From the NCBI GenBank assembly GCA_031286385.1, contig JAITUJ010000064.1, positions 1-60,339 of the forward strand: a stretch of DNA of 60,339 nucleotides, in the 5' to 3' direction. The DNA is from Clostridiales bacterium. GTDB lineage: Bacteria; Bacillota; Clostridia; Christensenellales; Pumilibacteraceae. Shown here in pieces: positions 5,524 through 60,339 of this stretch. The number at the start of each line of letters is the position of its first letter. The stretch's first letter is position 1. The notes below the pieces were generated by a model, which searched no databases, had not been told where the DNA came from, and saw nothing but the letters and a program-made list of their open reading frames with translations. The position numbers and the translations under genes are program-made.

Positions 5524-6078
5524 ATGGAAATTAGTAAATTTGATTTGCAATTAGCATTGCAAAAATACAAAGCTTATGATGAATATGAGCAAAAAAATTT
5601 GCAAAATTTTTCAAATTTTTTGCAAAATTCAAAAGAACCATTTGTACGCTCAAATTTTATAGGGCACATCACGGGGTCTGCATACTTGCTTTCAAATGAC
5701 TTGTCCCAAGTTTTGCTACACCATCACAGATTTTTAAACAAATGGCTTCAATTTGGAGGACACAGTGATGGCGATGCCAATACACTCAGAGTAGCTTTTA
5801 GAGAAACTATTGAGGAGTCTGGTATAGACAGTATAGTGCCATTGAGCCTTGATATTGTGGACATTGATATACATAATGTTCCACCAAATGCTCAAAAATA
5901 TGAACCGGCTCATCTACACTATGATGTCAGATTCATATTTTTGACTGACCATAAAGATTTTAAAATATCGCAAGAAAGCAACGAGATAAAGTGGTTTGAT
6001 TTTACACAATTTAAAAGCCTTTTTTCAAAAACAGAACATTATAGGTTTGCAAAAAAATGGGAGCTCCTTTTGATTTAA
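5524..6078 (+). CDS. NUDIX hydrolase
   Basis: A protein of 184 residues with a Nudix box, GHSDGDANTLRVAFRE followed by EESGI. The REx2EExG core that binds the metal is intact, but the first glutamate of the GX5E element is replaced by alanine. The LQFGGHSDGD entry is typical of a clostridial NUDIX group of unknown substrate. It likely hydrolyses a nucleoside diphosphate derivative. I place the start at 5524 because the -10 box is eight bases upstream; the first in-frame ATG at 5494 lies inside the promoter. It converges with the acyltransferase, with six bases between stops. Confidence 0.82.
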   Translation: MEISKFDLQLALQKYKAYDEYEQKNLQNFSNFLQNSKEPFVRSNFIGHITGSAYLLSNDLSQVLLHHHRFLNKWLQFGGHSDGDANTLRVAFRETIEESGIDSIVPLSLDIVDIDIHNVPPNAQKYEPAHLHYDVRFIFLTDHKDFKISQESNEIKWFDFTQFKSLFSKTEHYRFAKKWELLLI

Positions 6079-6084
6079 TGCACA

Positions 6085-6933
6085 CTACTTCTCATATTCA
6101 AGAGGTTTCTCGTACTCAACTTCATAGCACTTCTGCCATGCTTTTGCATTTTGTTCTTGCAAATAAACGCTGTTAGCTTTTACAGACAAGCTTTTATCAG
6201 GATATATGACAGGCATTATGTGAAATTTAAATTTTTGCACAATCAGTCCATCTTTCCCCACTAAATCACTATCACTCATAGTCAAAAAACAGGGAATGAC
6301 AGGCACACTATTTTTGGCTGCCAATACAAATGCACCGAGTTTTGTAGGGCGAGGTTTTTTATAGTGATGCCAAAGTGAACTTTCAGCAAAAATACATATT
6401 TTTTTCCCTCTTTTTAACCAGTATTGTACGGCATCAAAGCTATGCTTGTTGAGCTGTATATTTGTTTCGCTTACTGGAATTGTATTGCAATTTCTCATAA
6501 AAACACCTATCCAGCCTGGATACGTATAATTACTTTCTTTGATAACTTTAAATAATCTAAATTTAAAATAACCAAATTGCCTTCTAAATGCCAAATATGC
6601 CAAAAAGTGGTCGTATGGATGAACATGATTTAATGTAACAATAGCACCTCCATTTACACCGATTAAGTTTTGCATGCCTTGCACATCACATTTTGAATCA
6701 AATATTAGTACCTTTTTTTTTATTTCCCTATTTATATATGCTCTTGCTATTCGGTTGCTAAAAAACTGCTTAACTTTACTAAAAATTTTTTTGTTATACA
6801 AGTCTATTTTTTTAGGGTCAAGTGTGTCATAAGGAGGATCTTCTTCTACATCATCATTGAAAAGTCCAAGCTGTTCATATTCTTTTATTTTATTTTCTGT
6901 TTGTATTCTTCTCTGACTATCTCTATAATCCAT
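6085..6933 (-). CDS. PlsC-like 1-acylglycerol-phosphate acyltransferase
   Basis: About 282 residues with the lysophospholipid acyltransferase HX4D motif in NHVHPYDHF (about residue 108) and a FAESSLW segment where the family has the FPEGT block. Such enzymes add the second acyl chain to glycerol-3-phosphate lipids at the inner membrane face. An N-terminal extension of ~85 charged residues precedes the domain, and no clear membrane segment is seen. The serine in place of EGT glycine-threonine is atypical, so the exact acceptor is uncertain. An upstream ATG at 6951 is also possible; neither start has a ribosome site. Confidence 0.75.
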   Translation of the reverse strand: MDYRDSQRRIQTENKIKEYEQLGLFNDDVEEDPPYDTLDPKKIDLYNKKIFSKVKQFFSNRIARAYINREIKKKVLIFDSKCDVQGMQNLIGVNGGAIVTLNHVHPYDHFLAYLAFRRQFGYFKFRLFKVIKESNYTYPGWIGVFMRNCNTIPVSETNIQLNKHSFDAVQYWLKRGKKICIFAESSLWHHYKKPRPTKLGAFVLAAKNSVPVIPCFLTMSDSDLVGKDGLIVQKFKFHIMPVIYPDKSLSVKANSVYLQEQNAKAWQKCYEVEYEKPLEYEK

Positions 6934-6996
6934 AACTATATAATAACACAAAAATTCAAATATTTAAAGCAAATTTAAGCCTCAAAAAAATATTTA

Positions 6997-8430
6997 TCAT
7001 TTTGTTTCCAATTTTGCAATCACAACACTCATGTCATCTTGTACTCCATCTGATTTACCAGCACTGTCAAGTATGAGTTTGCACAGTTCTTCTGGTGACA
7101 AATGCTTGAAGTTAAAAATCAACTTTGCAAGACTTTGACCATCAAATCTGTCCGTTATGCCATCTGTTGCAAACACTACAAGGTCACCAGCTTTTAGCTT
7201 AATCTTTGTAACAATTGGCTTAGTTTCCGCCAACATTCCCATGGGCAATGACAATCCATTGATGATGACAGTTTTACTGTTTTGACACACTATAGATTTT
7301 GGAGACCCAAATTTAAAAATATCCAATGTATGCTCTTTTGTATCAAAAATTGCTATGTCCATAGATGAATAAAGTTCTTGTTCGGTTATCAACAGGTCAT
7401 TTGTCAGCTGCAAAGCTGAAAATGTAGGCATATTTGTCAAAAATAATTTTTCTACCAACTGTGTACACTTTTTACTGATGCTAAAAGCTTGTTCTCCACT
7501 GCCCATTCCATCACATAAAGTCATCAAAAACTTGCCACCACCTAAATTTACAAAGTTGCTGTAATCGCCACAGACATCTCCTTTTGGCATAAAACTTTGC
7601 GCATATTTTACTGACAGTAGGTTATTTGTTCTAACTCTGTAAAGATACAAATAAACCACCCCCACTGCAAATACCAAAATACAACTGTCTATGCTAAACT
7701 TGTCAAAAAAAAGCCCAGATACCGCCACAGATACTGTACTTACCAAAACTTTGCTAAATTCGTTATTCCCAATAATGTACACAGACAGCGCTAATACACT
7801 GCTTAGTGCTACAAAATAATAGTCCTGGGAAGCTAAACTAGCACCAACCCCCAAAGCAAGTGAAAAGCAAAAGTGAGCATTTACATCTTTGCAAAATAGA
7901 ACAACGACAGTAATAAAAATTACAAACGATTGTAAACCAATATAGGGAATCGTGTACAAAGACAACCCAACAACTGTGAGTATGGAGCAATATAGTAAAA
8001 ATTTTTGTGTACTTTGTTTTTCCTCATTAAGTACCATTAAGTTACTGCATAAATAAAAAAAACCAAATGCGAGTACTCCATCTAAAATAACGAATTCAAT
8101 TAACTTGACATCTAAGTACACAAAAGCCATATCAAGCAAAATTAGTAACAAAAAAGTAATTATTATTTTATACTTAGATTTATTCTTTAAAAAACAGGAC
8201 AGTAATACAACACCCGATTGCAAAAAAAATAATAAACTGTAACTTTGATTGCCCGAACTTAAAAGTCTAGCGACCAAGTAAACAGGTACAAAAAAAATAC
8301 CATTTGGCACAGCACAAACCAAACTCAACGCCCCGACTCCAAAGGGTTGAATGTTGAAAATTGTTCCAAAGGATACTATGAACAAAAATAAAATTTGACA
8401 GTATGTGTTACTTAGTTTTATTCTATACAC
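6997..8430 (-). CDS. spoIIE: SpoIIE-like serine phosphatase, short form
   Basis: A 477-residue membrane-bound PP2C phosphatase. Roughly 8-10 hydrophobic segments occupy residues 12-265, followed at once by a PP2C domain (about 275-477) with GDVCGDY, the metal aspartate in LCDGMGSGEQA (about 308), FATDGITDRF and DGVQDDMSV. SpoIIE dephosphorylates SpoIIAA and so activates sigma-F in the forespore. B. subtilis SpoIIE is ~827 residues; the ~260-residue central region that links membrane and phosphatase and mediates FtsZ interaction and regulation is absent. The start is GTG at 8430, seven bases after a TATACT. Another SpoIIE/RsbU-type role is possible. Confidence 0.85.
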   Translation of the reverse strand: MYRIKLSNTYCQILFLFIVSFGTIFNIQPFGVGALSLVCAVPNGIFFVPVYLVARLLSSGNQSYSLLFFLQSGVVLLSCFLKNKSKYKIIITFLLLILLDMAFVYLDVKLIEFVILDGVLAFGFFYLCSNLMVLNEEKQSTQKFLLYCSILTVVGLSLYTIPYIGLQSFVIFITVVVLFCKDVNAHFCFSLALGVGASLASQDYYFVALSSVLALSVYIIGNNEFSKVLVSTVSVAVSGLFFDKFSIDSCILVFAVGVVYLYLYRVRTNNLLSVKYAQSFMPKGDVCGDYSNFVNLGGGKFLMTLCDGMGSGEQAFSISKKCTQLVEKLFLTNMPTFSALQLTNDLLITEQELYSSMDIAIFDTKEHTLDIFKFGSPKSIVCQNSKTVIINGLSLPMGMLAETKPIVTKIKLKAGDLVVFATDGITDRFDGQSLAKLIFNFKHLSPEELCKLILDSAGKSDGVQDDMSVVIAKLETK

Positions 8431-8437
8431 TGGATAC

Positions 8438-8470
8438 AGTATAACACAATATTATTAATACTTTTTGACA
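8438..8470 (-). promoter_or_regulatory. spoIIE promoter region with Spo0A-box-like site
   Basis: Minus strand -10 TATACT (8438-8443), seven bases from the GTG. No good -35 hexamer lies 17 bases upstream. TGTCAAA (8464-8470) sits 20 bases upstream and matches the Spo0A box TGTCGAA at six of seven positions. In B. subtilis spoIIE is activated by Spo0A from a promoter with non-standard spacing, so this is plausible but unproven. Confidence 0.4.
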
Positions 8471-8502
8471 TACTTTGTAAAAAATAAAATATTGCTGTCA
8501 AA

Positions 8503-9588
8503 TTATTCTACTGTACCATTTTTTATCACAAATTTTTTAAAATGTTCTATACTGTCTAACAGTTCTTGCTCTATATGCGTAGCGGTGATGAGCGTTTGAG
8601 TAAATTTACAAAACTGTAAAAGTTTTTTACAGCGACTATTGTCCAACTCGCTCAATACATCATCCAATAAAAGTATGGGAGGTTCTCTATTTAAATCTGT
8701 CAGAATGTCAATTTCAGCCAACTTCAAACTTAGCGCAGCAGAGCGCTGTTGACCTTGGCTACCAAAACACCTTGCATCTGTGCCATTTAACAAAATCTGA
8801 ATGTCGTCTTTGTGTGGTCTACTGTGTGTGTAGCCATGTTTTAAGTCTTTTACTCTGTCTGCATCTAATTGAGATTGGAGCGTCTGTTTAACTATATCTA
8901 AATCCTGTGAGTCTACTCCATGATATTTGACTGTCAATTCCTCTCTTGTATCACTCAAAGCAAAGTGTCTAACTTTTGCAAAACTTGCCAACCTATCTAC
9001 AAAACCACGGCGATTTTTTGCAATTTTAGCGCCAATTTCTACAAATTGCTTGTCCCAGATAAACAGTTCATCATCACTCGCTCTTCCATTCTTTAACAAC
9101 TTATTGCGCTGACTCAAAACTTTATTGAAATTATTTAGCGTGTAAAAATAGGTCTTTGACAACTGGCACAGCGCAATATCCATAAAACGACGTCGTTCAT
9201 TTGGACCTTCTTTGACTATCCTCAACTCGTCCGGACTAAACAGCACCACGCTACAAACTCCCATCAGCTCACCCAATCGGACAACAGGAACCCCGCTAAT
9301 TGAAACTCGCTTATTTGCCGTTCTATCCAAAACAATGTCCACACTTTCTTTGCCACGTTTTGAGTTTAATTTAACTTGCACTCTTGACTGTTTGCTTTCA
9401 ATTTTTATCATCTCTTTATCTTTTGAGGTTCTAGCACTCTTGCCCACTCCACACAGGTACACAGCCTCTAACAAGCTGGTTTTACCCTGTGCATTGTCTC
9501 CCAAAATGAAATTTATACCATTTGCAAACTGCAATTTAGCATGTTGATAATTCCTAAAATTATCAATTTGTAGAGTTGATATATTCAC
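8503..9588 (-). CDS. recF: DNA replication/repair protein RecF
   Basis: A 361-residue SMC-like ATPase that helps load RecA at gaps. Walker A is GDNAQGKTSLLEA (about residues 30-42). The ABC signature region is GSQGQQRSAALS (about 278-289). Walker B is PPILLLDDVLSELD. The start codon is GTG at 9588. A -10 box ends nine bases upstream and there is no ribosome site, so a leaderless message is likely. In most Firmicutes recF lies between dnaN and gyrB near the origin; here it stands alone downstream of the Mur ligase and gyrB is 15 kb away. Confidence 0.95.
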   Translation of the reverse strand: MNISTLQIDNFRNYQHAKLQFANGINFILGDNAQGKTSLLEAVYLCGVGKSARTSKDKEMIKIESKQSRVQVKLNSKRGKESVDIVLDRTANKRVSISGVPVVRLGELMGVCSVVLFSPDELRIVKEGPNERRRFMDIALCQLSKTYFYTLNNFNKVLSQRNKLLKNGRASDDELFIWDKQFVEIGAKIAKNRRGFVDRLASFAKVRHFALSDTREELTVKYHGVDSQDLDIVKQTLQSQLDADRVKDLKHGYTHSRPHKDDIQILLNGTDARCFGSQGQQRSAALSLKLAEIDILTDLNREPPILLLDDVLSELDNSRCKKLLQFCKFTQTLITATHIEQELLDSIEHFKKFVIKNGTVE

Positions 9589-9596
9589 TTAAATAC

Positions 9597-9625
9597 ATTA
9601 TAACACAAAGTTGCTTCACACTCAA
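9597..9625 (-). promoter_or_regulatory. recF promoter (leaderless)
   Basis: Minus strand -35 TTGAGT (9620-9625), 17-base spacer, -10 TATAAT (9597-9602), then eight bases to the GTG. Confidence 0.65.
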
Positions 9626-9665
9626 CAATAATTGGTATCGTAAAAATACTTTGTGCATTTTTATA

Positions 9666-11279
9666 TTACTCCATGCTGTCTGGCAAGTCATTTTCAAATA
9701 ACACTACATAATTGCCCTCTATTGCTTTTAACATCTCAACAGCCTCAAAAAGTGTTTTAACAACTTGAACTTTAACTTTTTCATTTTCCTGTCTTATCCC
9801 ATCAAAAATAAAATTTGCTCTACTACCTACCAAAAAGGCATAATCGCACACCTTTGCAATTTCTTTACCCAACTCCATATTTGTATTTTGAGTTTGTGTG
9901 CCCTGCTGTACAATTCCCGGTGTGATGATGACTTTTGCAAGGTCTTTAAACTGCCCCATCACTTCCAAAGCATTTTTTGCTCCAATTAAGTTGCTACTAA
10001 ACGCATTATCGATTATTAGATTGCCATTATTTTGTATTAGTTGCAATCTGTGCGGTAAAGGCTGTACTCTCTGCAAAGTATTTTTCATTAGTTCGGTGTC
10101 ATCAATGCCCATTTTAAACGCTACCGCACAACACATGGTCATCAAATGTGGTACATGTCTACCAAAAAGTGAAGAATGTACTTTAATTTTTTTTCCATTG
10201 AGAATCATGTCAAATGAAATTCCATTTTTACAAACTTCAATGTTGTCAGACATGGCAATGTCACTCTGTGTGCCCACGAATACAGCCTGTCTGTACCCAT
10301 TTGCCCTTGCCCTAATATCAAAGTTACTTCCATCAAGTATGGCTATTCCATCTTGTTTTAGACCACTGATAATTTCAAACTTTGTATTTAAAACTTGCTC
10401 CAAGCTACCAAATGTATCTAGGTGCATATTCCCTACACTCACTATCATACAAAAATCAAGCCTAGCTATGTCCACAAGCTCCAAAATGTCACCTTTATAC
10501 CTTGCACCCATTTCCAATATCAATACGTCATGGCTACTATTTAGTGTATTGTTTATCGTCTTTGTCAACCCCATAGGAGTGTTAAAACTGGAAGGAGATT
10601 TGCAGACATTAAACCTTGTCGACAAAATTTCACTCAAAATATTTTTTGCACTCGTCTTACCAAAGCTACCCGTTATGCCAATAATTTTTAAATTGGGAAA
10701 CTGCGCCAATTTTATCTTGGCCTTTTTAATATACCTTTTACATATGAGTTTTTCTATTGGGGCATTCATAAAATTGGCAAACAATACAATGGGCATACAA
10801 AACAGAGGTAAAATGCCAATGTGAGAGTATAAAAAAATACCTGATGGAATAAAACTAAAAATCAAAACTAAAAAGACTATTGACAAAATTAAAGTAAAAT
10901 AAAGTCTTTTTACTCTTGGCGTAAACTTTAAGGGAGTTTTTGATTTAACTTTTGTTATAACCAAAAAAAGCCAAGTTAGTATTACAAAAAATAAAAAACC
11001 TAAATATCTCCAACCAACAAAGTTTCCAAAACAAGCAACAAAAATTGACATACCCAATGTAGTCAAGAATGACAGAAAAAAATATCTATAAAAGTATGTG
11101 TACCCGCTATCTCTAAACCATGTCTTAAATTCGCGCATCTTGTACTGGCAGAGCTGCAACATCTGCACAGTTTTTTTGCTCAACGCAACCATAAAAACAG
11201 TGACAGTAACAAACATTATCACCGTTAGAACTCTCTCTATATTCCCATTTGCCCAAACTGTAAAATCAATATAACTCAT
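9666..11279 (-). CDS. Membrane-anchored Mur ligase (MurF-like)
   Basis: A 537-residue protein. The first ~180 residues hold about five or six hydrophobic segments. A Mur-ligase ATPase follows, with P-loop GITGSFGKTSAKN (about residues 202-214), a central-domain glutamate/histidine segment (LEMGARYKGD, VGNMHLDTFG) and a C-terminal domain with LIIDNAFSSNLIGAKNAL where MurF has its DDxYNANP block. MurF joins D-Ala-D-Ala to UDP-MurNAc-tripeptide. The usual MurF N-terminal UDP-substrate domain is missing and replaced by membrane segments, so the substrate may be membrane-linked or different (inference). The gene follows the hydrolase by 28 bases. Confidence 0.8.
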   Translation of the reverse strand: MSYIDFTVWANGNIERVLTVIMFVTVTVFMVALSKKTVQMLQLCQYKMREFKTWFRDSGYTYFYRYFFLSFLTTLGMSIFVACFGNFVGWRYLGFLFFVILTWLFLVITKVKSKTPLKFTPRVKRLYFTLILSIVFLVLIFSFIPSGIFLYSHIGILPLFCMPIVLFANFMNAPIEKLICKRYIKKAKIKLAQFPNLKIIGITGSFGKTSAKNILSEILSTRFNVCKSPSSFNTPMGLTKTINNTLNSSHDVLILEMGARYKGDILELVDIARLDFCMIVSVGNMHLDTFGSLEQVLNTKFEIISGLKQDGIAILDGSNFDIRARANGYRQAVFVGTQSDIAMSDNIEVCKNGISFDMILNGKKIKVHSSLFGRHVPHLMTMCCAVAFKMGIDDTELMKNTLQRVQPLPHRLQLIQNNGNLIIDNAFSSNLIGAKNALEVMGQFKDLAKVIITPGIVQQGTQTQNTNMELGKEIAKVCDYAFLVGSRANFIFDGIRQENEKVKVQVVKTLFEAVEMLKAIEGNYVVLFENDLPDSME

Positions 11280-26489: not shown

Positions 26490-28178
26490 TCACATCTCTA
26501 TTGGAGCTTTTAACAAAAGCAATTCAAGTCCCTTGTTTAGAGCATTTTTTGTCAAATTTATAATCCTTAAACGAGAATTTGCTAAGTCACTCTGCTCCCC
26601 CACTATGCGGTTGGATAAATAAAATCTATTAAAATTTTGAGCAATATCCAGCAAAAGTCTAGAAAGTATACTAGGTTCATATTTTTCACAAGCTAGCTTT
26701 ACTGTGTCATTAAATCGCGCTATAAGTTTAACAAGTTCAAAAGTATCACTGTCCACATCTTTAAATTTAAAGTTTTTAATATCCAATTTTTTTATTCCGG
26801 CTTGGTCTGCTTTTCTGATAATACTACAACACCTTGCATGAGTATACATCAAATACGGTGCAGTTTCACCTTCAAATTCCAAAGCTTTATCAATGTCAAA
26901 TATGATATCTTTAATTCTTCCGTTTGACAATGCACCAAACACTATTGCACCTACACCTACACTTTGAGCGACTGTTTCCTTTTCAGTCAAATTAGGATTT
27001 TTTTGCTCAATTGTATGCAAAGCTTTTTGTACAGCTTCGTCAAGCACTTTGGATAAATACATTACATTGCCTTTGCGTGTAGACAAACTACCTCCATCTT
27101 TTAAGCTGACCATACCAAATTGAACATGCACACAGTCGTCAACCCAATCCCTACCCATCAATTTTAGCGTGGAAAAAACTTGACTAAAATGCAAATTTTG
27201 TTGATAGGCAACTACATAGAGATTTTTGTAAAAATTGTATGTTTTTTTACGGTAAATAGCTGTAGCCAAATCTCTAGTCGCATACAGCGAAGCGCCGTCT
27301 GACCGCAATACAAGTAAGGGTGGTCTATTTTCTCCCACTTCCACTACCATTGCACCATCACTTTGTACCAGCAAATTTTTTTGCTTTAATTCATCTACTA
27401 CAGGCTGAATTTTGTCATTATAAAAACTTTCACCATTATAACTGTCAAACACTACTCCCAACTTGTCATAAGTTTTTTGCACTTCTTTTAAAGTTATTTG
27501 TTTAAACATATCAAATAACTGCAAAGCCTCCTTGTCACCCTGCTCTAGCTTTAAAAAGTAAACTCTTGCCCTTTCATCAAGTGTCTTATCTTTTTCTGCT
27601 TCTGCGTGAAATCTAACATACAAATCCAAAAGACTGCTTATTCCTCGCTTATCTAAGTCGTCATCATCTCCCCACATCTCATACGCACACAGTAATTTGC
27701 CAAACTGTGTACCCCAATCCCCCAAGTGATTGATTCCCACAACTTTAAAGCCCAAATAAGTAAACATACGATACAAAGAACCACCAATGACAGTAGATGA
27801 CAAGTGTCCTATATGAAAAGGTTTTGCAATATTTATACTACTATAATCTATACAGATGGTCTTACCAGCACCAAATTTTAAGTTATCAAAACTCACAGTG
27901 TTGACAGCTGATTCTACAAACTTATCTCTATCTAAGAAAAAGTTTAAATAGCCACTTTGAGCCTGCACCTTATTTATCGCTTTATCTTTGAATTTTGTAG
28001 CTAGCTCACTTGCAATCACATTTGGAGCCTTTTTTAATTCCTTTGATAACTTAAAACAAGGGAAAGCAAAATCTCCCATTTTGCTGTCAGATGGTATCTC
28101 TACATTACCCTCTACTAAATGAGCATTCATTGAAGCATTTTTTATTATAAGTTTTTCTATATATTTTTTATCTATCAT
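26490..28178 (-). CDS. argS: Arginyl-tRNA synthetase
   Basis: A 562-residue class I synthetase. The N-terminal Add-1 domain (about 1-85) is followed by the HIGH region SINIAKPFHIGHLSST (about residues 113-128), a KMSKS-like loop reading SLSTRKGN, and a C-terminal DALR anticodon-binding domain (YTHARCCSII onward). The ATG has no ribosome site, and a TATAAA box is eight bases upstream. A terminator follows. No T-box. Confidence 0.97.
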   Translation of the reverse strand: MIDKKYIEKLIIKNASMNAHLVEGNVEIPSDSKMGDFAFPCFKLSKELKKAPNVIASELATKFKDKAINKVQAQSGYLNFFLDRDKFVESAVNTVSFDNLKFGAGKTICIDYSSINIAKPFHIGHLSSTVIGGSLYRMFTYLGFKVVGINHLGDWGTQFGKLLCAYEMWGDDDDLDKRGISSLLDLYVRFHAEAEKDKTLDERARVYFLKLEQGDKEALQLFDMFKQITLKEVQKTYDKLGVVFDSYNGESFYNDKIQPVVDELKQKNLLVQSDGAMVVEVGENRPPLLVLRSDGASLYATRDLATAIYRKKTYNFYKNLYVVAYQQNLHFSQVFSTLKLMGRDWVDDCVHVQFGMVSLKDGGSLSTRKGNVMYLSKVLDEAVQKALHTIEQKNPNLTEKETVAQSVGVGAIVFGALSNGRIKDIIFDIDKALEFEGETAPYLMYTHARCCSIIRKADQAGIKKLDIKNFKFKDVDSDTFELVKLIARFNDTVKLACEKYEPSILSRLLLDIAQNFNRFYLSNRIVGEQSDLANSRLRIINLTKNALNKGLELLLLKAPIEM

Positions 28179-28186
28179 TTTTTTAT

Positions 28187-28214
28187 TTTATATTTGCAAA
28201 TGCAAATTGGTCAA
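28187..28214 (-). promoter_or_regulatory. argS promoter (probably leaderless)
   Basis: Minus strand -35 TTGACC (28209-28214), 16-base spacer, -10 TATAAA (28187-28192), eight bases to the ATG. Confidence 0.55.
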
Positions 28215-36583: not shown

Positions 36584-36621
36584 AAAAAACACACACATCA
36601 AGTTTGACGTGTGTGTTTTTT
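36584..36621. terminator. Bidirectional terminator
   Basis: Arms AAAAAACACACAC and GTGTGTGTTTTTT pair perfectly, and part of the 12-base loop (TCAA/TTGA) can pair as well. T-runs follow on both strands. It ends the plus-strand zinc-ribbon gene and, on the minus strand, the ruvX-DUF1292 unit, whose stop codon lies in the stem. Confidence 0.88.
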
Positions 36622-44237: not shown

Positions 44238-44534
44238 TCAGTTATTCTGTAAAAATGCACTAATTGCACTGGCAAAATCTCTGTCTACAATGCCTATTAG
44301 CTTGCAATTTGCTTTAAACACAATATACTCTAATCTTTCACTTTCTAATTTTATGCAAATTAAAGATTTTTTTTGACAGTAATTTTTCAATTTATCTTGT
44401 GAGCTACTTGACAAAGTAAAATCATAGACAACCAATTTGATATGCGAACTTTTTACAACGCTATCCAACCCATATATGACCTTTCCGGATTTTATTGCAA
44501 AACCAATGAGTGCAGTAGCTTTTTTTATATCCAT
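44238..44534 (-). CDS. ylxQ: L7Ae-family RNA-binding protein (YlxQ-like)
   Basis: 98 residues with the L7Ae/L30e fold pattern (ALIGFAIKSGKVIYG, VVKSSHIKLVVYD), as in YlxQ, a kink-turn RNA binder of the ribosomal L7Ae family. The ATG at 44534 gives the usual MDIKKA-type N-terminus; a longer frame opens at 44552. Between ylxR and infB, the standard place. The 103 bases to infB hold only the infB ribosome site and AT-rich DNA. Confidence 0.88.
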   Translation of the reverse strand: MDIKKATALIGFAIKSGKVIYGLDSVVKSSHIKLVVYDFTLSSSSQDKLKNYCQKKSLICIKLESERLEYIVFKANCKLIGIVDRDFASAISAFLQNN

Positions 44535-53634: not shown

Positions 53635-53730
53635 ACACATATATATTGTCACAACACATTACAAAATATAATCGTTATTTTCAGTTAATTTTAAAAATAA
53701 AAAGTTTGTATACTTACTCATTTTTATACA

Positions 53731-53773
53731 AAAAACAAAAGTTGAAAAATTATTTTACTTCAACTTTTGTTTT
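53731..53773 (-). terminator. Terminator after spo0A
   Basis: Perfect 15-base arms AAAACAAAAGTTGAA and TTCAACTTTTGTTTT with a 12-base loop, extending into T on the minus strand, 34 bases past the spo0A stop. Confidence 0.85.
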
Positions 53774-53807
53774 GCAATTCAATCTCAAATGTATTGCTTA
53801 TAAATCA

Positions 53808-54536
53808 TCAAATCACTTCAAGCAACATTTTGTCAGCTACAAGGGCAATAAACTCACCGTTTGTAGGTCTATCTTTATTGCTGTACACTTTAACGCCAAA
53901 TAGTGTATTTATATTTTCTATCCTCCCTTTATTCCATGCAACCTCAATGGCATGTCTAATAGACCGCTCCACCTTGCTCGCACTTGTGCTAAACTTGTCG
54001 GCAATGACAGGATATAATTTTTTTGTAATGCTGTTTACAATACTTGGATTGTCAATAGCCAACTTTATTGCTTCTCGCAAAAACTTATACCCCTTTATAT
54101 GGGCAGGTATTCCTACTGTGATAAAAATATTTGTTATCTTCTCCTCCAAACTCTTATTGTTGCTTCGCACAAGCGTTCCTATATTTTTTTGGGGTAGCTC
54201 TAATATGCGATTGTACAAAACATCTTTGTCATAAGGTTTTATTATATAGTACACAGCACCTAGCCGTGTTGCTTTGACAATAAAGCCCTCTTTTGACAAT
54301 GCAGATAGTATAATGATTTTAGTGTGACAACTTGCGTTCATGTTCTCCAACAACCAGTAACCATCAGCCTCAGGCATGATTAAATCAACGATGGCAACGT
54401 CAGGATTTAAACTATTTATCAACTCCAAACCTTGTCTTCCATTTGTAGCTGTACCCACGACTTCAAACTTTTCATTTAAGTCGCTTTTAAGCTTTTCTAA
54501 AAGTTCTACATCATCATCAACTAGTAAAATATTCAT
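53808..54536 (-). CDS. spo0A: Sporulation master regulator Spo0A
   Basis: A 242-residue response regulator. The receiver domain has acidic residues VDDDVE (6-11), phospho-acceptor Asp 51 in VDLIMPEADGYW, and Lys 100 in IIKPYDKD. The DNA-binding domain (about 130-242) has the Spo0A-specific GIPAHIKGYKFLREAI and the recognition helix SASKVERSIRHAIEVAW (185-201). Phosphorylated Spo0A controls entry to sporulation. Start supported by GGGAGGAG two bases before the ATG. It is followed by a strong terminator. Confidence 0.97.
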   Translation of the reverse strand: MNILLVDDDVELLEKLKSDLNEKFEVVGTATNGRQGLELINSLNPDVAIVDLIMPEADGYWLLENMNASCHTKIIILSALSKEGFIVKATRLGAVYYIIKPYDKDVLYNRILELPQKNIGTLVRSNNKSLEEKITNIFITVGIPAHIKGYKFLREAIKLAIDNPSIVNSITKKLYPVIADKFSTSASKVERSIRHAIEVAWNKGRIENINTLFGVKVYSNKDRPTNGEFIALVADKMLLEVI

Positions 54537-54654
54537 TTCTCCTCCCTAATAAAATTAAATTTTTCAATTAAAAATAAAATTGTTCTGTCAATATTTTCAA
54601 ATAATAGCATCATATTATTTATTCATTTGTTAAAAATTTGATTACAGTAATTGT

Positions 54655-54683
54655 ATTATAACAAATAAATATGTTAAAAGCAA
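54655..54683 (-). promoter_or_regulatory. Candidate spo0A promoter
   Basis: Minus strand -35 TTGCTT (54678-54683), 17-base spacer, -10 TATAAT (54655-54660), giving a leader of about 110 bases. No sigma-H promoter could be recognised. Confidence 0.45.
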
Positions 54684-54742
54684 GCACAAAATATATAATT
54701 TTTCATTTATTTAAAAATATTTTGTTTTATTTAAATATTTAT

Positions 54743-54749
54743 TGTCGAA
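54743..54749 (+). promoter_or_regulatory. Spo0A box upstream of spo0A
   Basis: TGTCGAA, an exact match to the Spo0A-binding consensus, 207 bases upstream of the spo0A ATG and about 60 bases upstream of its candidate -35. Suggests autoregulation. Confidence 0.45.
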
Positions 54750-54866
54750 ACCAATTTTTTGATGTTATTTTCAACAATAAAAAGCATTTTTAAACTAATT
54801 ATTTGAAATATTTTAAATTACTTTAATAACAACTTTCTATAAAACCTCATTATGAAAATGTGCAAC

Positions 54867-54911
54867 AAAAAACACATGTAAAGCTTACAACAACAATAAC
54901 ATGTGTTTTTT
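54867..54911. terminator. Strong terminator hairpin
   Basis: Thirteen-base perfect arms AAAAAACACATGT / ACATGTGTTTTTT, T-runs on both strands. It would also end any read-through from the cas-permease unit. Confidence 0.75.
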
Positions 54912-54934
54912 ATATTCTACTCATTCAACTGTAA
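54867..54934 (-). ncRNA. Candidate ~70-nt small RNA (or spo0A leader attenuator)
   Basis: A consensus promoter (TTGACA-17-TATACT) should start transcription near 54934. A strong hairpin with T-tail (arms AAAAAACACATGT at 54867-54879 and ACATGTGTTTTTT at 54899-54911, 19-base loop) lies only ~25 bases further. The product would be a ~70-base RNA dominated by the terminator hairpin. If polymerase reads through, the same RNA would become a long leader of spo0A, making the hairpin an attenuator. No open frame longer than a few codons fits. A tracrRNA was considered but cannot be tested without the CRISPR repeat. Confidence 0.45.
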
Positions 54935-54969
54935 CAAGTTAGTATAAAAAATATACTAACTTGTGTCAA
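54934..54969 (-). promoter_or_regulatory. Consensus promoter embedded in a perfect palindrome
   Basis: Minus strand -35 TTGACA (54964-54969), 17-base spacer, -10 TATACT (54941-54946). A 13-base perfect inverted repeat ACAAGTTAGTATA / TATACTAACTTGT (54934-54964) with a five-base centre spans from the last base of the -35 through the -10. This is a classic repressor-operator position. Confidence 0.65.
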
Positions 54970-55336
54970 TGATGTTTATTTTAGGAATCAGATAAATGAA
55001 AATTGCAACTAAATATCATCAGCAAATATTCTGTATATTCATAATGATTTATCATGAAAAATGTCTTGCTTTCTATTTGTCCAATGAACTAGGATAAAGA
55101 ACCACTTGGACTAAAATACATTGCCTTTAATTTTTCGTTGGTTTTTACTTTTTCAAGTGAGCTTTTTACATAATTTATTTTACCTAGTCTATATCACTTT
55201 TTTTCAAAGTTCTCTTAAATAGCGCCTATCAACAAGTCAACCGACAAAAAACTTTAAATATTTTCCCATTCGTTTCTAAAATTGACATCACAAAGTGCAA
55301 TTAAAATTCCTGTTATAAAATGTGGATTGCGTTCCA
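54970..55336. other. AT-rich intergenic stretch without a recognised gene
   Basis: About 370 bases between the permease stop and the small-RNA promoter. I see no frame with a ribosome site, no repeated unit of CRISPR type, no tRNA and no terminator right after the permease. It could hold an undetected RNA such as a tracrRNA. The 54540-54866 part contains the spo0A leader, promoter and box described separately. Confidence 0.6.
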
Positions 55337-56779
55337 CTATGCAACAGCATTTTCTTTTGGTTTTTTAAACCAAATAAAACCAATCAATATCGTCACAAAA
55401 ATTACAGCCAGATAAATAAGCGTCATTATCCACCCAGGAGTATTGTTTAAAGATCCATTGATAAAAAAGCTTACAATAGAGAATACAGTTGTAATCAGTG
55501 CTAAAAGTGGCATAAAAAACCGATTAATCCAATGCAAATCTTTCATTTTAAACATAAAAAATACAAATATCGGGGACACTGTTACAGCAAAGCCAAGGAT
55601 AGTGATGTCACCTATGTCAAAAATTATTCCACTTTTATCCCAATTATATATTCCAAAACCCCACAATTCACTAAACATTTGTATGCACAACCAAAACATA
55701 GTAATACCCAATACTAGTATTGATGCGTTATGTGGAGAATTGGTAGAAGGGTCCAATTGAGAAAATACCTTTGAGTTTGGACCCAAACCTCTACATGATA
55801 TTGCATACAGACTGCGATTTTGTCCCATGATATTTGAATTTAATGCACCTATGCAAGAAATGATAATAAACAAAATCATAATTGTAGAAAAGCCACTGTT
55901 TATTAGCCTAGAAAAAGCATCCGCTGCCCAGTTGGATTCAGACCCACTTACACTAGGGTCAGGTGGATTTGCTCTGTCTCCCAAAAATGAAAGACCTAAA
56001 AAGTAAAGTACATAAGCAGCAATAACAATGATAGAACCAGCTATTAACGCTATGGGCAAATTTCGTTTACCATTTTTTATCTCTGCATTCAATGCAGTTA
56101 CGGTGTACCAGCCACCGTAAGCAAACCCAGTAGCGATCAAGGCCCCAAAAAAGCTACTTCCACTACCTTCTGTCCTCGACTGTATCATATCCGTTATTGT
56201 AGGTGTTTGGTGAAAAATTGCCCAAACCATGCCGCCAAATCCAATAAAAATTATGGGTATCAATTTTATATAAGTGGCCGTTGTGTTTAACTTGCCTGCC
56301 AATTTGGGCGCCAACACATTGATACAAAAGAGTACTACAATATAAAAACCAGCCAATGTAAAGACAAAACGTGAGTCCCACCCGTATACAGACTTATCTA
56401 ACCCCAAAAATTGACTGGTAAAGTCAGCGGCAACTACGGCCATGATTGCGGTTGCACAGGGGTGATAGATGGTTGCTAAAAACCATCCTGCACCATATGC
56501 ATACTTCTTACCTACTATTTCTTCGCTGTAATCCATGAATCCGCCGCACTTTTCGTACTTCGTTGCCAAAATGGCAAAGACATAGGCACCACTCAACATA
56601 GATATGCCACCTAGTACCCAGGCCAAAACGCCCATGAATATGTCACCATCAGTATTGAACAAAACTCTACCTGGCCTAAAAAATATACCGGCACCGATGA
56701 CACTGCCCACTACCATGGCAATTGCAGCAATTAAACCATACTTACGCGTTAAAGCGTTATGACTACTGTCACTTTGCAT
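55337..56779 (-). CDS. APC-family amino-acid permease
   Basis: 480 residues from the chosen start, about 12 hydrophobic helices. The first helix has the APC signature AMVVGSVIGAGIFFRPG. It resembles LAT/SteT-type amino-acid exchangers. Substrate unknown. The open frame extends to 56842, three bases from the cas2 stop, but the N-terminus there (MIKFLQRKYGLK) precedes the normal APC start. I prefer the ATG at 56779, with a GGGGG stretch 11 bases upstream. It is oriented with, and probably transcribed from, the cas9-cas1-cas2 unit, an unusual neighbour for a CRISPR locus. Confidence 0.88.
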   Translation of the reverse strand: MQSDSSHNALTRKYGLIAAIAMVVGSVIGAGIFFRPGRVLFNTDGDIFMGVLAWVLGGISMLSGAYVFAILATKYEKCGGFMDYSEEIVGKKYAYGAGWFLATIYHPCATAIMAVVAADFTSQFLGLDKSVYGWDSRFVFTLAGFYIVVLFCINVLAPKLAGKLNTTATYIKLIPIIFIGFGGMVWAIFHQTPTITDMIQSRTEGSGSSFFGALIATGFAYGGWYTVTALNAEIKNGKRNLPIALIAGSIIVIAAYVLYFLGLSFLGDRANPPDPSVSGSESNWAADAFSRLINSGFSTIMILFIIISCIGALNSNIMGQNRSLYAISCRGLGPNSKVFSQLDPSTNSPHNASILVLGITMFWLCIQMFSELWGFGIYNWDKSGIIFDIGDITILGFAVTVSPIFVFFMFKMKDLHWINRFFMPLLALITTVFSIVSFFINGSLNNTPGWIMTLIYLAVIFVTILIGFIWFKKPKENAVA

Positions 56780-56801
56780 AAATAAATGTACCCCCGTAAA
56801 G

Positions 56802-56816
56802 TGGGCTTTAAGCCCA
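56802..56816. repeat. Short palindrome between cas2 and permease
   Basis: TGGGCTT-T-AAGCCCA, a 15-base perfect palindrome in the 66 bases between the cas2 stop and the preferred permease start. No T-tail, so not a terminator. It could be an RNA hairpin that tunes permease expression. Confidence 0.4.
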
Positions 56817-56845
56817 TACTTCCTTTGTAAAAACTTTATCAAAAA

Positions 56846-57166: not shown

Positions 57167-58062
57167 AAAAACTTGAACCTCTCTATGGGCGTCAATTTTA
57201 CATGTGGTAAAATTACAGTACTGTTAACAATACTTTGGTTCAACCCTATTATGACTTTGTCAATTGCATTGTTTAGATTGTATTTTTTTTCATCTACTGT
57301 AACAGAACTGTCTACTATGGCAAACAACTGTCGCTTGGCTTGCACATCAAAATCTTGATGACGCTCGACCATCGAAAATACAAACTGGTCAACAAAAGGC
57401 CTAAACGGCTCTATCATATCATCTGCAAGATTAAAAGCGTTTAATTCACTTTTATGCCAAATTCCTATACATGGCTCATATCCGTAGGCTACAATTGTGC
57501 GAGATATAAGCCCACGCAAAATTGCATAACCGTAATCTAGCGCTGCATTGATAAAGTTGTCTTGATGTCGTGCAAACCCTACACCAAATAATTGTTCAAA
57601 GTAAACAGATGCAGCGTTAGCTTCCGTGTGAGTTTGGTCACCAGGTTGTACCTTATTGGATAAATCAAAAATGTAGTCTGCTTTATCTTTGCTAAAAAGT
57701 TGCAACACTTTGGCTTGATTTTGCAATTTATTTTTTATGATTGCCTGCCACAAACTATCTTTAAACTCCTGCGTCATATTTATCTGACTTTTCAACGCTT
57801 TTAAATGTCTGCTGTGACTACAAAAAGGCAAAAGCACACCAGATGGTGAGTGTCTTGCATTGCACACAAATACACAAACTTGGTATTGTGCCAACTGTGA
57901 GAGTGTATATACAGAAATTGTGCTGTCTCTACTCTCCAATACAAGACTATTTATGTCTTCAATATCAAATTTGGTTTGGTCAAACTCTTGTTTTATACAT
58001 AGACGATTTTTGTCTATGTATAAATAACTCGGGCTGGATACAAAAATATTTCTAAAAGCCAT
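57163..58062 (-). CDS. cas1: CRISPR-associated integrase Cas1 (type II)
   Basis: 299 residues. Metal-site residues are Glu 147 in HTEANAAS, His 203 in GIWHKSELNAF and Glu 218 in LADDMIEPFRPFVD. It inserts new spacers with Cas2. Size and motifs match type II Cas1. A weak AAAGGAT lies 11 bases before the ATG. It is followed by cas2 with a four-base overlap and preceded by cas9 after 98 bases. Confidence 0.95.
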   Translation of the reverse strand: MAFRNIFVSSPSYLYIDKNRLCIKQEFDQTKFDIEDINSLVLESRDSTISVYTLSQLAQYQVCVFVCNARHSPSGVLLPFCSHSRHLKALKSQINMTQEFKDSLWQAIIKNKLQNQAKVLQLFSKDKADYIFDLSNKVQPGDQTHTEANAASVYFEQLFGVGFARHQDNFINAALDYGYAILRGLISRTIVAYGYEPCIGIWHKSELNAFNLADDMIEPFRPFVDQFVFSMVERHQDFDVQAKRQLFAIVDSSVTVDEKKYNLNNAIDKVIIGLNQSIVNSTVILPHVKLTPIERFKFL

Positions 58063-58140: not shown

Positions 58141-58165
58141 CTACATAATTCTACATAATTCTACA
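58141..58165. repeat. Ten-base tandem repeat at the cas9 3' end
   Basis: CTACATAATT occurs twice in tandem, followed by a half copy CTACA that contains the cas9 stop codon. The rest of the cas9-cas1 gap (58063-58140) holds a TTGACA on the minus strand but no matching -10 at normal spacing. Confidence 0.6.
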
Positions 58166-60339
58166 CCAAACTGGATTTTTTGTCAAATGTTTGACGAACT
58201 TGTTTTGCTTTTATTGAAGTAATTTTTCCCAGTACATCAACTTCGCATTTTTTGATTGTTTGAAGTGTTTTTAAGCCTATCCTGCCATCCCAGTCTTTGC
58301 CATCACTTTTAAGCTGTGACCGATCGTGGGATAATAGCCCTATTGTTCCGCTGCTAATATCAGCACCATTATAATAAAAGTGACCTTTTTTACCTTTATT
58401 TTCCATATAAACTAAGTCATTTGGATACAAGCTAAACAAAAAGTCAGTTTCTTTCATCTCTTTCCACTCTTCATACGGCTTTTTTGCCACAACTGCTTTA
58501 TTTGGCAATTCTTTTTTTACGGTGTCATACACATAAATTGGCACAAAGTAGTACCCTAAATCCTTCTTTACAGCATCATTATCTGGTGTCAACTTGTCAC
58601 CTATTTTAAAAACATCAATCCTTATCATATCACCGTTTGCAGCTAAACCCCCACGCAACTCCAAATTTAGATTGGTACTCTCAATACATTTAACGGATTT
58701 TACTAGATTACCGTCTTCTATTTTGTTCCCTTTTTTATCTATAATTGGCTTAAAAAATGGCTTTTTAAAAGCTTTTTCGGCATCTCCATTGTACTCTATC
58801 AATTTATCTATCAAAGCTTTATGCAAAATTTGGTCACTTTTAGCAAAAATTGTATCACTGTAACCTTCTATTTTGTCTTTATTTTTATTTAACTTTAAAG
58901 CTTGTAATTTAGTAGTCTTAAATCTCTTTGTACTGTCAAATTTACCGTTGTGATTTTCAACTTTGACTTTTCCATACACAGTGTCTTTGTGCGCTTGCCC
59001 GCTCACTTTGCGTGTAGGTTTTCTAGATACAAATATTTTATCCTCAGCACAATCATGCAATCCTTGACTTTTTGTAATTAAATTTTCCACATTTTCCCTG
59101 AAAATTGTCGCATTTACATTTTTTAGTGGAGAAAATTCACTGTCAAAATGTTGCTTGTCCAAATCTTTTTTTAACTTATGACTGACTTGCCTTTTATCAA
59201 GCCCTCTTTGAATATATTCTTGATGTTCTAGAACTTCACCTGTGCCAAAGTCAATAAATTTGCCTGCCTCCATATCATGTTTACGCTGTCCATTTTCCAA
59301 TTTTTTGTAATGTCTACTTATTTGAGAAATATAAGATTGCGTAGTACAGCCTACTACAATGGCATCCAAAGCGTGGTGCGTATCACCAGCTTCTCTAATT
59401 TTGTTAAACCCAAATCTTGAACGAATAAAACTAGTCATAGTTCCATTGACGGATAAAACTCTACTTCTATTTGCACCGTCATCATCTTTGAAATTTGGGG
59501 CATCACTGAACTGCAAATATTTTTTGAACATATTTGCAATTAATTTAGTAGCGTATCTTGTATCATTGAGGTTGCGATCAATAAAATTTTGTCTGTCTTC
59601 CTGTGTAATTTCTAATTTTAATAGCCTAGCTTTCTTTTCAAAATTTCTCTCGTATATGCGGTTGACATTGCAAATAAACTGCTCTTTCTTTTGACCATCT
59701 AGGTATTCTAACGGCAACCTGTTTCCTTTCTGTTGATTTTCTGCTGCCAAAACCAAAACTTTGTTTTTATAGCTGTCGTTAAAACTCACACTGTATGGCA
59801 CTATGTGGTCTATTTCTACATACCCATCTTTAAGCAAATCTTCTTCTTTAATATGAACTCCACTGTACATACACAATCCACGCTGCTCTCTAAAAAGTTT
59901 TACTTTTTGAATATCTATACCGCCTGGTTGTGATTTATTCAAATCTTTTTTTATATAGTTTTTGATTCCTTCATTATTATTTCTATTTTCACTTTGCTCA
60001 TTTGCAATTCGTTTTCGTTCATCTGCACTTTTAGCCATCTCTCGCGCCAACTCTATGTTTATTGCTATTGGACTTGTATACTGCTGTATAAGTGCATTGA
60101 CAACTTTTATTGTCTGAGACGTAGAACGCCTGACAATTGGGTTGCTTATAGGCGACTTACCATCATTTTCTGCATGTTTTATGAGTTCCAACTTTTTTAC
60201 CCTTATTTTTTCACCTTCTGCTTTAAAGTCATATTCCGCTTTTTCGCACGCCTTGTCATAAGTCAAACCCGGTGTCCAATGAGGCAAAATTTTGTTTATC
60301 GCTTTAACAGAAAGATGCCCAAAACCTGACGGAAAGTCA
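58161..60339 (-). CDS. cas9: Cas9 endonuclease, 5' part missing
   Basis: The C-terminal ~725 residues of Cas9; the frame runs off the window end without a start codon. The entry FPSGFGHLSVKAINKI is the end of the recognition lobe. RuvC-II is SPIAINIELARE. The HNH domain has VEIDHIVPYS and NKVLVLAAENQQKGNRLP, with catalytic Asp/His and Asn intact (His codon at 59805-59807). RuvC-III is THHALDAIVVG. About 400 residues follow, covering the PAM-interacting region. RuvC-I, the arginine-rich bridge helix and most of the REC lobe lie outside. Without csn2 or cas4 next to cas1-cas2, the locus looks like type II-C. Confidence 0.96.
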   Translation of the reverse strand, partial: DFPSGFGHLSVKAINKILPHWTPGLTYDKACEKAEYDFKAEGEKIRVKKLELIKHAENDGKSPISNPIVRRSTSQTIKVVNALIQQYTSPIAINIELAREMAKSADERKRIANEQSENRNNNEGIKNYIKKDLNKSQPGGIDIQKVKLFREQRGLCMYSGVHIKEEDLLKDGYVEIDHIVPYSVSFNDSYKNKVLVLAAENQQKGNRLPLEYLDGQKKEQFICNVNRIYERNFEKKARLLKLEITQEDRQNFIDRNLNDTRYATKLIANMFKKYLQFSDAPNFKDDDGANRSRVLSVNGTMTSFIRSRFGFNKIREAGDTHHALDAIVVGCTTQSYISQISRHYKKLENGQRKHDMEAGKFIDFGTGEVLEHQEYIQRGLDKRQVSHKLKKDLDKQHFDSEFSPLKNVNATIFRENVENLITKSQGLHDCAEDKIFVSRKPTRKVSGQAHKDTVYGKVKVENHNGKFDSTKRFKTTKLQALKLNKNKDKIEGYSDTIFAKSDQILHKALIDKLIEYNGDAEKAFKKPFFKPIIDKKGNKIEDGNLVKSVKCIESTNLNLELRGGLAANGDMIRIDVFKIGDKLTPDNDAVKKDLGYYFVPIYVYDTVKKELPNKAVVAKKPYEEWKEMKETDFLFSLYPNDLVYMENKGKKGHFYYNGADISSGTIGLLSHDRSQLKSDGKDWDGRIGLKTLQTIKKCEVDVLGKITSIKAKQVRQTFDKKSSLV

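Follow-up and report, generated by a model that had tools for sequence, protein, structure and literature searches.

Upstream of spo0A in a draft clostridial genome stands a compact arrangement of a promoter, a perfect dyad and a hairpin, which raises the question of what such a unit would make, and under what control, beside the master gene of sporulation. The genome comprises 1.37 Mb in 94 contigs and is 87% complete; the window, that is, the whole stretch of 60,339 nucleotides analysed here, is 60 kb of this total. In the window, the next gene upstream of spo0A (53808–54536, minus strand; Response_reg and Spo0A_C domains in Pfam) encodes an amino acid permease (55337–56842, minus strand) and comes after cas9-cas1-cas2 on the same strand. 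A permease gene also follows cas2 in the only other genome of the genus. The best reading of the arrangement, held here at a little under even confidence, is that of a lineage-specific repressible promoter predicted to make an RNA of about 70 nt.

Anatomy of the promoter, dyad and hairpin

The promoter, the hairpin and the predicted transcript are all features of the minus strand. The promoter consists of a −35 hexamer, TTGACA (54964–54969), and a −10 hexamer, TATACT (54941–54946), separated by a 17-nt spacer, both of which were identified from the sequence, by a promoter scan and with shuffled controls. Together they match 11 of 12 consensus bases, the top score among nine promoter-like sites in 53700–55400. 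The operator-like dyad (13+5+13, ACAAGTTAGTATA / TATACTAACTTGT) occupies 54934–54964, is strand-neutral and is centred near −15, with two perfect arms at 54934–54946 and 54952–54964. When +1 is placed 7 nt past the −10 hexamer, at about 54934, the dyad extends from about −31 to +1 and takes in the −10 hexamer, the spacer and the predicted start. Of the −35 hexamer it includes the final base alone, so that the covering of the promoter by a perfect 13-base inverted repeat, as proposed in the earlier note, holds for the −10 hexamer and spacer but not for the −35 hexamer.

About 67 nt lead from the promoter to a hairpin resembling an intrinsic terminator (54867–54911, minus strand), in which arms at 54867–54879 and 54899–54911 form 13 perfect pairs around a 19-nt loop, with T6 on both strands. 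Its stem is A/U-rich, with five to six pairs making up the A/U flank and only three G-C pairs, and its loop is long. The positions of promoter and terminator predict a short minus-strand transcript of about 68–75 nt (54867–54934), ending at or just past 54867. On its own strand, this predicted RNA contains no open reading frame of at least 20 aa, while a single frame of 24 codons, starting with GTG (54860–54934), is present on the opposite strand. In both the minimum-energy and the centroid structure, the RNA folds into the terminator, accompanied by no more than a weak 5′ hairpin. The promoter, the perfect 13-base repeat and, following within about 70 bases, the 13-pair hairpin that the earlier note had described are all present.

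The anatomy of this DNA is rare by chance. Dinucleotide shuffling (2000 shuffles) of the 800-bp gap that separates spo0A from the permease gene (GC 23%) yielded perfect inverted repeats of at least 13 bp with a spacer of 3–25 nt at 0.0065 per shuffle; the real gap has two such repeats, compared to none of the 2000 shuffles. Promoters matching 11 of 12 bases with a 17-nt spacer arose at 0.046 per shuffle. Across the whole window there are five long perfect inverted repeats compared to 0.05 expected (40 shuffles), and nine promoters of at least 11/12 compared to 3.5 expected and a shuffle maximum of seven. A scan of the window for a promoter followed by a terminator returned no equally good pair, its only other match being a weaker one at 28065–28214.

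Two of the other long repeats in the window are plain terminators, one at 36584–36621 directly after a zf_Tbcl gene (Pfam) and one at 53732–53773 directly after spo0A. The hairpin at 54867 shares the style of these two, in support of its reading as a terminator. A further perfect 13-bp dyad, with a 7-nt spacer and TATA-rich arms of different sequence, lies within the start of cas1 (57992–58024).

Distribution of the cassette and the control region of spo0A

The cassette, taken as 156 bp, is absent from the other family genomes searched. A DNA search of 74 family genomes returned only the cassette itself above chance, the remaining matches being scattered stretches of 15–39 bp. Twelve of these weak matches were inspected by sequence, and none is the same element; those on contigs C33 and C25 fall inside open frames. 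With up to three mismatches allowed, the dyad is found as one copy in its own genome and in none of the 73 others. Its 16-base core, with two mismatches, occurs in four further places in its own genome compared to two for a control, and two of the four are in open frames. No exact match to the dyad is present in IMG/VR, and the surrounding 497 bp have no match in phage or plasmid collections. A repeat or mobile element was rejected as an explanation, given the single copy of the dyad and the unrelated nature of the inspected weak matches. Elsewhere in the genome, a repeated piece at G000:C88:5793 (L139) and G000:C64:261 (L140), made up of a hairpin and then TTTTTTATACTGACTT, may be a small element, mobile or repeated; one copy is near a contig end.

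At the spo0A locus itself, 80 loci of relatives were fetched with Spo0A, of which 78 had at least 300 bp upstream (best-segment identities 52–61%). A comparable operator-promoter, defined as a promoter of at least 10/12 centred in a perfect repeat of at least 10 bp with a spacer of 3–9 nt, was found upstream of spo0A in none of these 78; the lone match, at locus L006, is a terminator-like repeat with the promoter match on the opposite strand. Conservation in close relatives, whose lack the earlier note had named as a refutation, was likewise found in none of the 73 other family genomes; relatives other than the genus-mate share only about 60% of the Spo0A sequence. For the genus-mate, the nearest genome and the decisive one to compare, the comparison is silent, as its contig starts within the last spo0A codons and the region 5′ of the gene falls outside it.

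What relatives do share is a 0A box, TTCGACA, which in the window (54743–54749, minus strand) is part of the control of spo0A rather than of the cassette. It stands 213 bp before the spo0A start codon, with the terminator upstream of it and, downstream, a separate promoter-like site for spo0A, TTGCTT-17-TATAAT (54655–54683, minus strand), that was read from the sequence; the promoter scan placed an overlapping site, TTAACA-16-TACAAT, at 54677–54650 (minus strand). The core motif of the 0A box is given as TGTCGAA in PMC3485338. In the sense orientation, TTCGACA lies between −60 and −260 of spo0A in 65 of the 78 relatives, at positions of 87–251 bp and mostly about 141–160 bp, compared to 2 of 78 for the reverse orientation and 0.56 for shuffles. 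In a second set of 30 loci (L082–L111, including that of the window), 17 have it no more than 260 bp from the start, and two have it reversed. The conserved 0A box is likely an autoregulatory site of spo0A across the lineage. By these comparisons, it is the 0A box, and not the promoter-dyad cassette, that is conserved in this lineage as a control element of spo0A.

Candidate regulators and RNA partners

The Pfam scan took in all 54 chosen window genes (at least 80 aa). Among these 54, no DNA-binding repressor other than Spo0A was recognisable, and the remark in the earlier note that nothing nearby encodes an obvious cognate repressor is borne out. Four of the 54 genes, at window positions 44241, 46689, 50106 and 35688, have no Pfam family. 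Recombinase and transposase domains were also absent from the 54. As an operator, the dyad has the expected overlap with a near-consensus promoter; of the supporting but not strictly required features, a cognate repressor was not found among the 54 genes, nor a second operator in the genome, where the operator is unique.

Layouts of this kind have been described in other bacteria. In the QacR/IR1 system of the TetR family, a long dyad over the qacA promoter and/or start site is bound by a repressor, which represses transcription, according to PMC3617543 and PMC3022030. The likeness is one of layout only, since the QacR repressor and its regulated gene are known, whereas for the cassette no repressor was found in the window and the predicted product is an RNA of very small size that contains no open reading frame. 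Symmetric bidirectional bacterial promoters form a class defined, in PMC10268837, by starts 7–25 bp apart. Like these, the dyad of the cassette gives a TATACT −10 hexamer on both strands. Its predicted starts, however, are about 30 bp apart, outside that range of 7–25 bp, and the plus-strand −35 hexamer, CTGTAA, matches at 3 of 6 bases; the spacing of the starts was the reason to reject this class.

A role of the short RNA in base-pairing with spo0A was rejected as well. The best duplex with the spo0A leader has an energy of −18.4 kcal/mol compared to a median of −19.9 kcal/mol for 300 shuffles, no better than chance for an antisense or trans-acting small RNA. Against other window genes, the strongest duplexes reach −30 kcal/mol, these being raw energies without a shuffle background. 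A type I toxin-antitoxin system was set aside owing to the lack of an open reading frame of at least 20 aa on the RNA strand of the transcript. Rfam 15 gave no match in the window at the gathering score, and at E up to 1 a single sub-threshold miRNA match, at 55348–55382, lies outside the cassette. A literature search on small RNAs upstream of spo0A in Clostridium returned no matching paper by the terms used.

The neighbouring type II CRISPR-Cas system suggests another partner, as a tracrRNA is likewise a short terminated RNA near cas9-cas1-cas2. The cassette shares the strand of these genes and is some 2 kb past cas2, and its RNA would have a fitting size and terminator. It has no anti-repeat to the CRISPR repeat, the longest stretch common to it and the matching array being 9 nt and T-rich, and a better candidate exists. 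The cas9 gene, cut by the window end (58161–60339), continues on contig C24 as its N-terminal half (G000:C24:11016–12481, L160). Directly upstream of it is a tracrRNA-like stretch that matches, and would pair with, a 66-nt-period array on contig C17 (C17:37–465, in G000:C17:1–530, L178; repeat GTTATAGCCCCCTCTCAATTTTTGTTATGATATAGT). The short RNA is therefore almost certainly neither the tracrRNA nor another CRISPR RNA of the adjacent Cas9 system, whose tracrRNA is likely the one on C24.

Several further observations concern the CRISPR loci. A second tracrRNA-like stretch seems to come after the C17 array. In the genus-mate (L161), 18 kb around the cas genes contain no CRISPR-like repeat array. 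The genome also carries a second, different type II system (G000:C25:1–14000, L135), with a Cas9 frame of 1590 codons and a 66-nt-period array (repeat GTTTTAGACTACTAAGGAATTACACTACTCTCAAAC) that by eye has no likeness to the cassette. On C24 (L160), the genes at 5646–10678, directly upstream of cas9, are presumably those of an arginine deiminase pathway (carbamoyltransferase, carbamate kinase, antiporter and arginine deiminase).

Explanations for the cassette

It was proposed in the earlier note that the element might form an attenuated leader of spo0A. With its 0A box and promoter-like site downstream of the terminator, spo0A appears to have its own control region there; since the 0A box stands between the terminator and this separate promoter, an attenuated leader is unlikely, and the minimum-energy and centroid folds show no competing antiterminator (no relatives were available for covariation). 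A broader form of the idea is that the cassette is a distal, repressible spo0A promoter with a leaky or regulated terminator, the short RNA being its attenuated leader, similar to Pv of B. subtilis. The promoter, the 0A box and the second promoter do stand in that order on the spo0A strand, the long loop and A/U-rich stem of the terminator would suit leakiness, and spo0A of B. subtilis is described as using two promoters and 0A boxes in PMC12090719. The window shares a 0A box (TTCGACA/TGTCGAA) upstream of spo0A with the Pv/Ps region of B. subtilis and with spo0A of C. difficile. It differs from such Spo0A-autoregulated regions in that its dyad promoter is above a terminator, outside the conserved region. 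Considering also the strength of the separate promoter-like site, the fold without a visible antiterminator and the failure of all 78 relatives to show a comparable operator-promoter (the one match, at L006, being a terminator), the distal promoter is quite improbable.

The main rival, unlikely in our judgement but the most serious of those considered, is that both hairpins belong to a long 3′ UTR of the cas9-cas1-cas2-permease unit. The hairpin at 54867–54911 would then terminate that unit, the dyad would be an RNA hairpin at which the transcript is processed or its 3′ end stabilised, and an AT-rich palindrome would have given the promoter match as a by-product. Strand and order agree with this, and the only other terminator-like site in the stretch from the permease stop (55337) to the hairpin is a weak stem of five pairs, situated at the stop codon. 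The dyad does fold as RNA (−14.7 kcal/mol, free of mismatches), and its role could be that of an RNA hairpin rather than of an operator, two possibilities that sequence alone does not distinguish; as a hairpin it lacks a U-tract. The 3′ UTR would have to be about 430–470 nt long, and chance would have to account for the 11/12 promoter with its exact spacing of 17 nt, which arises at 0.046 per shuffle. It is rather improbable that the cassette is neutral or decayed sequence or some other DNA-binding site, such as a core site for recombination or the border of a mobile element since lost. Its uniqueness and lack of conservation are in keeping with such an origin, as is the upstream neighbour of the gap, which differs from that of many relatives. 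A perfect 13/13 dyad beside a perfect terminator stem is unlikely to outlast drift, though, and neither a recombinase or transposase domain in the 54 scanned genes nor a second copy in the genome accompanies it.

A lineage-specific repressible promoter thus remains the preferred reading, and from it we infer transcription, a repressor and, as the product, the RNA or simply insulation. The near-consensus housekeeping promoter and the operator-like dyad would form a stand-alone transcription unit, restricted to this lineage, whose non-coding RNA of about 68–75 nt would end at the intrinsic terminator. A dimeric or paired-dimer repressor on the dyad would block RNA polymerase, since the dyad takes in the start site and everything up to the border of the −35 hexamer. 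The terminator would separate this short unit from spo0A, whose own promoter and 0A box are further downstream. Of the small RNA under tight repression that the earlier note envisaged, a repressible promoter that would make a short, terminated RNA survives as the best reading of the anatomy, while the repressor has no counterpart in the window.

A link between the promoter-dyad cassette and sporulation is a prediction only, from one genome. In its fullest form, a signal would release the dyad, and the RNA, or read-through past the weak terminator, would tune entry into sporulation above the 0A-box circuit; such a repressor-gated, lineage-specific RNA at spo0A is highly improbable. If transcribed, the cassette would give this uncultured, gut-type clostridium a further orphan small RNA, whose operator is unusually clear. 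Its cognate repressor, if mapped, could reveal a signal wired beside the sporulation master gene.
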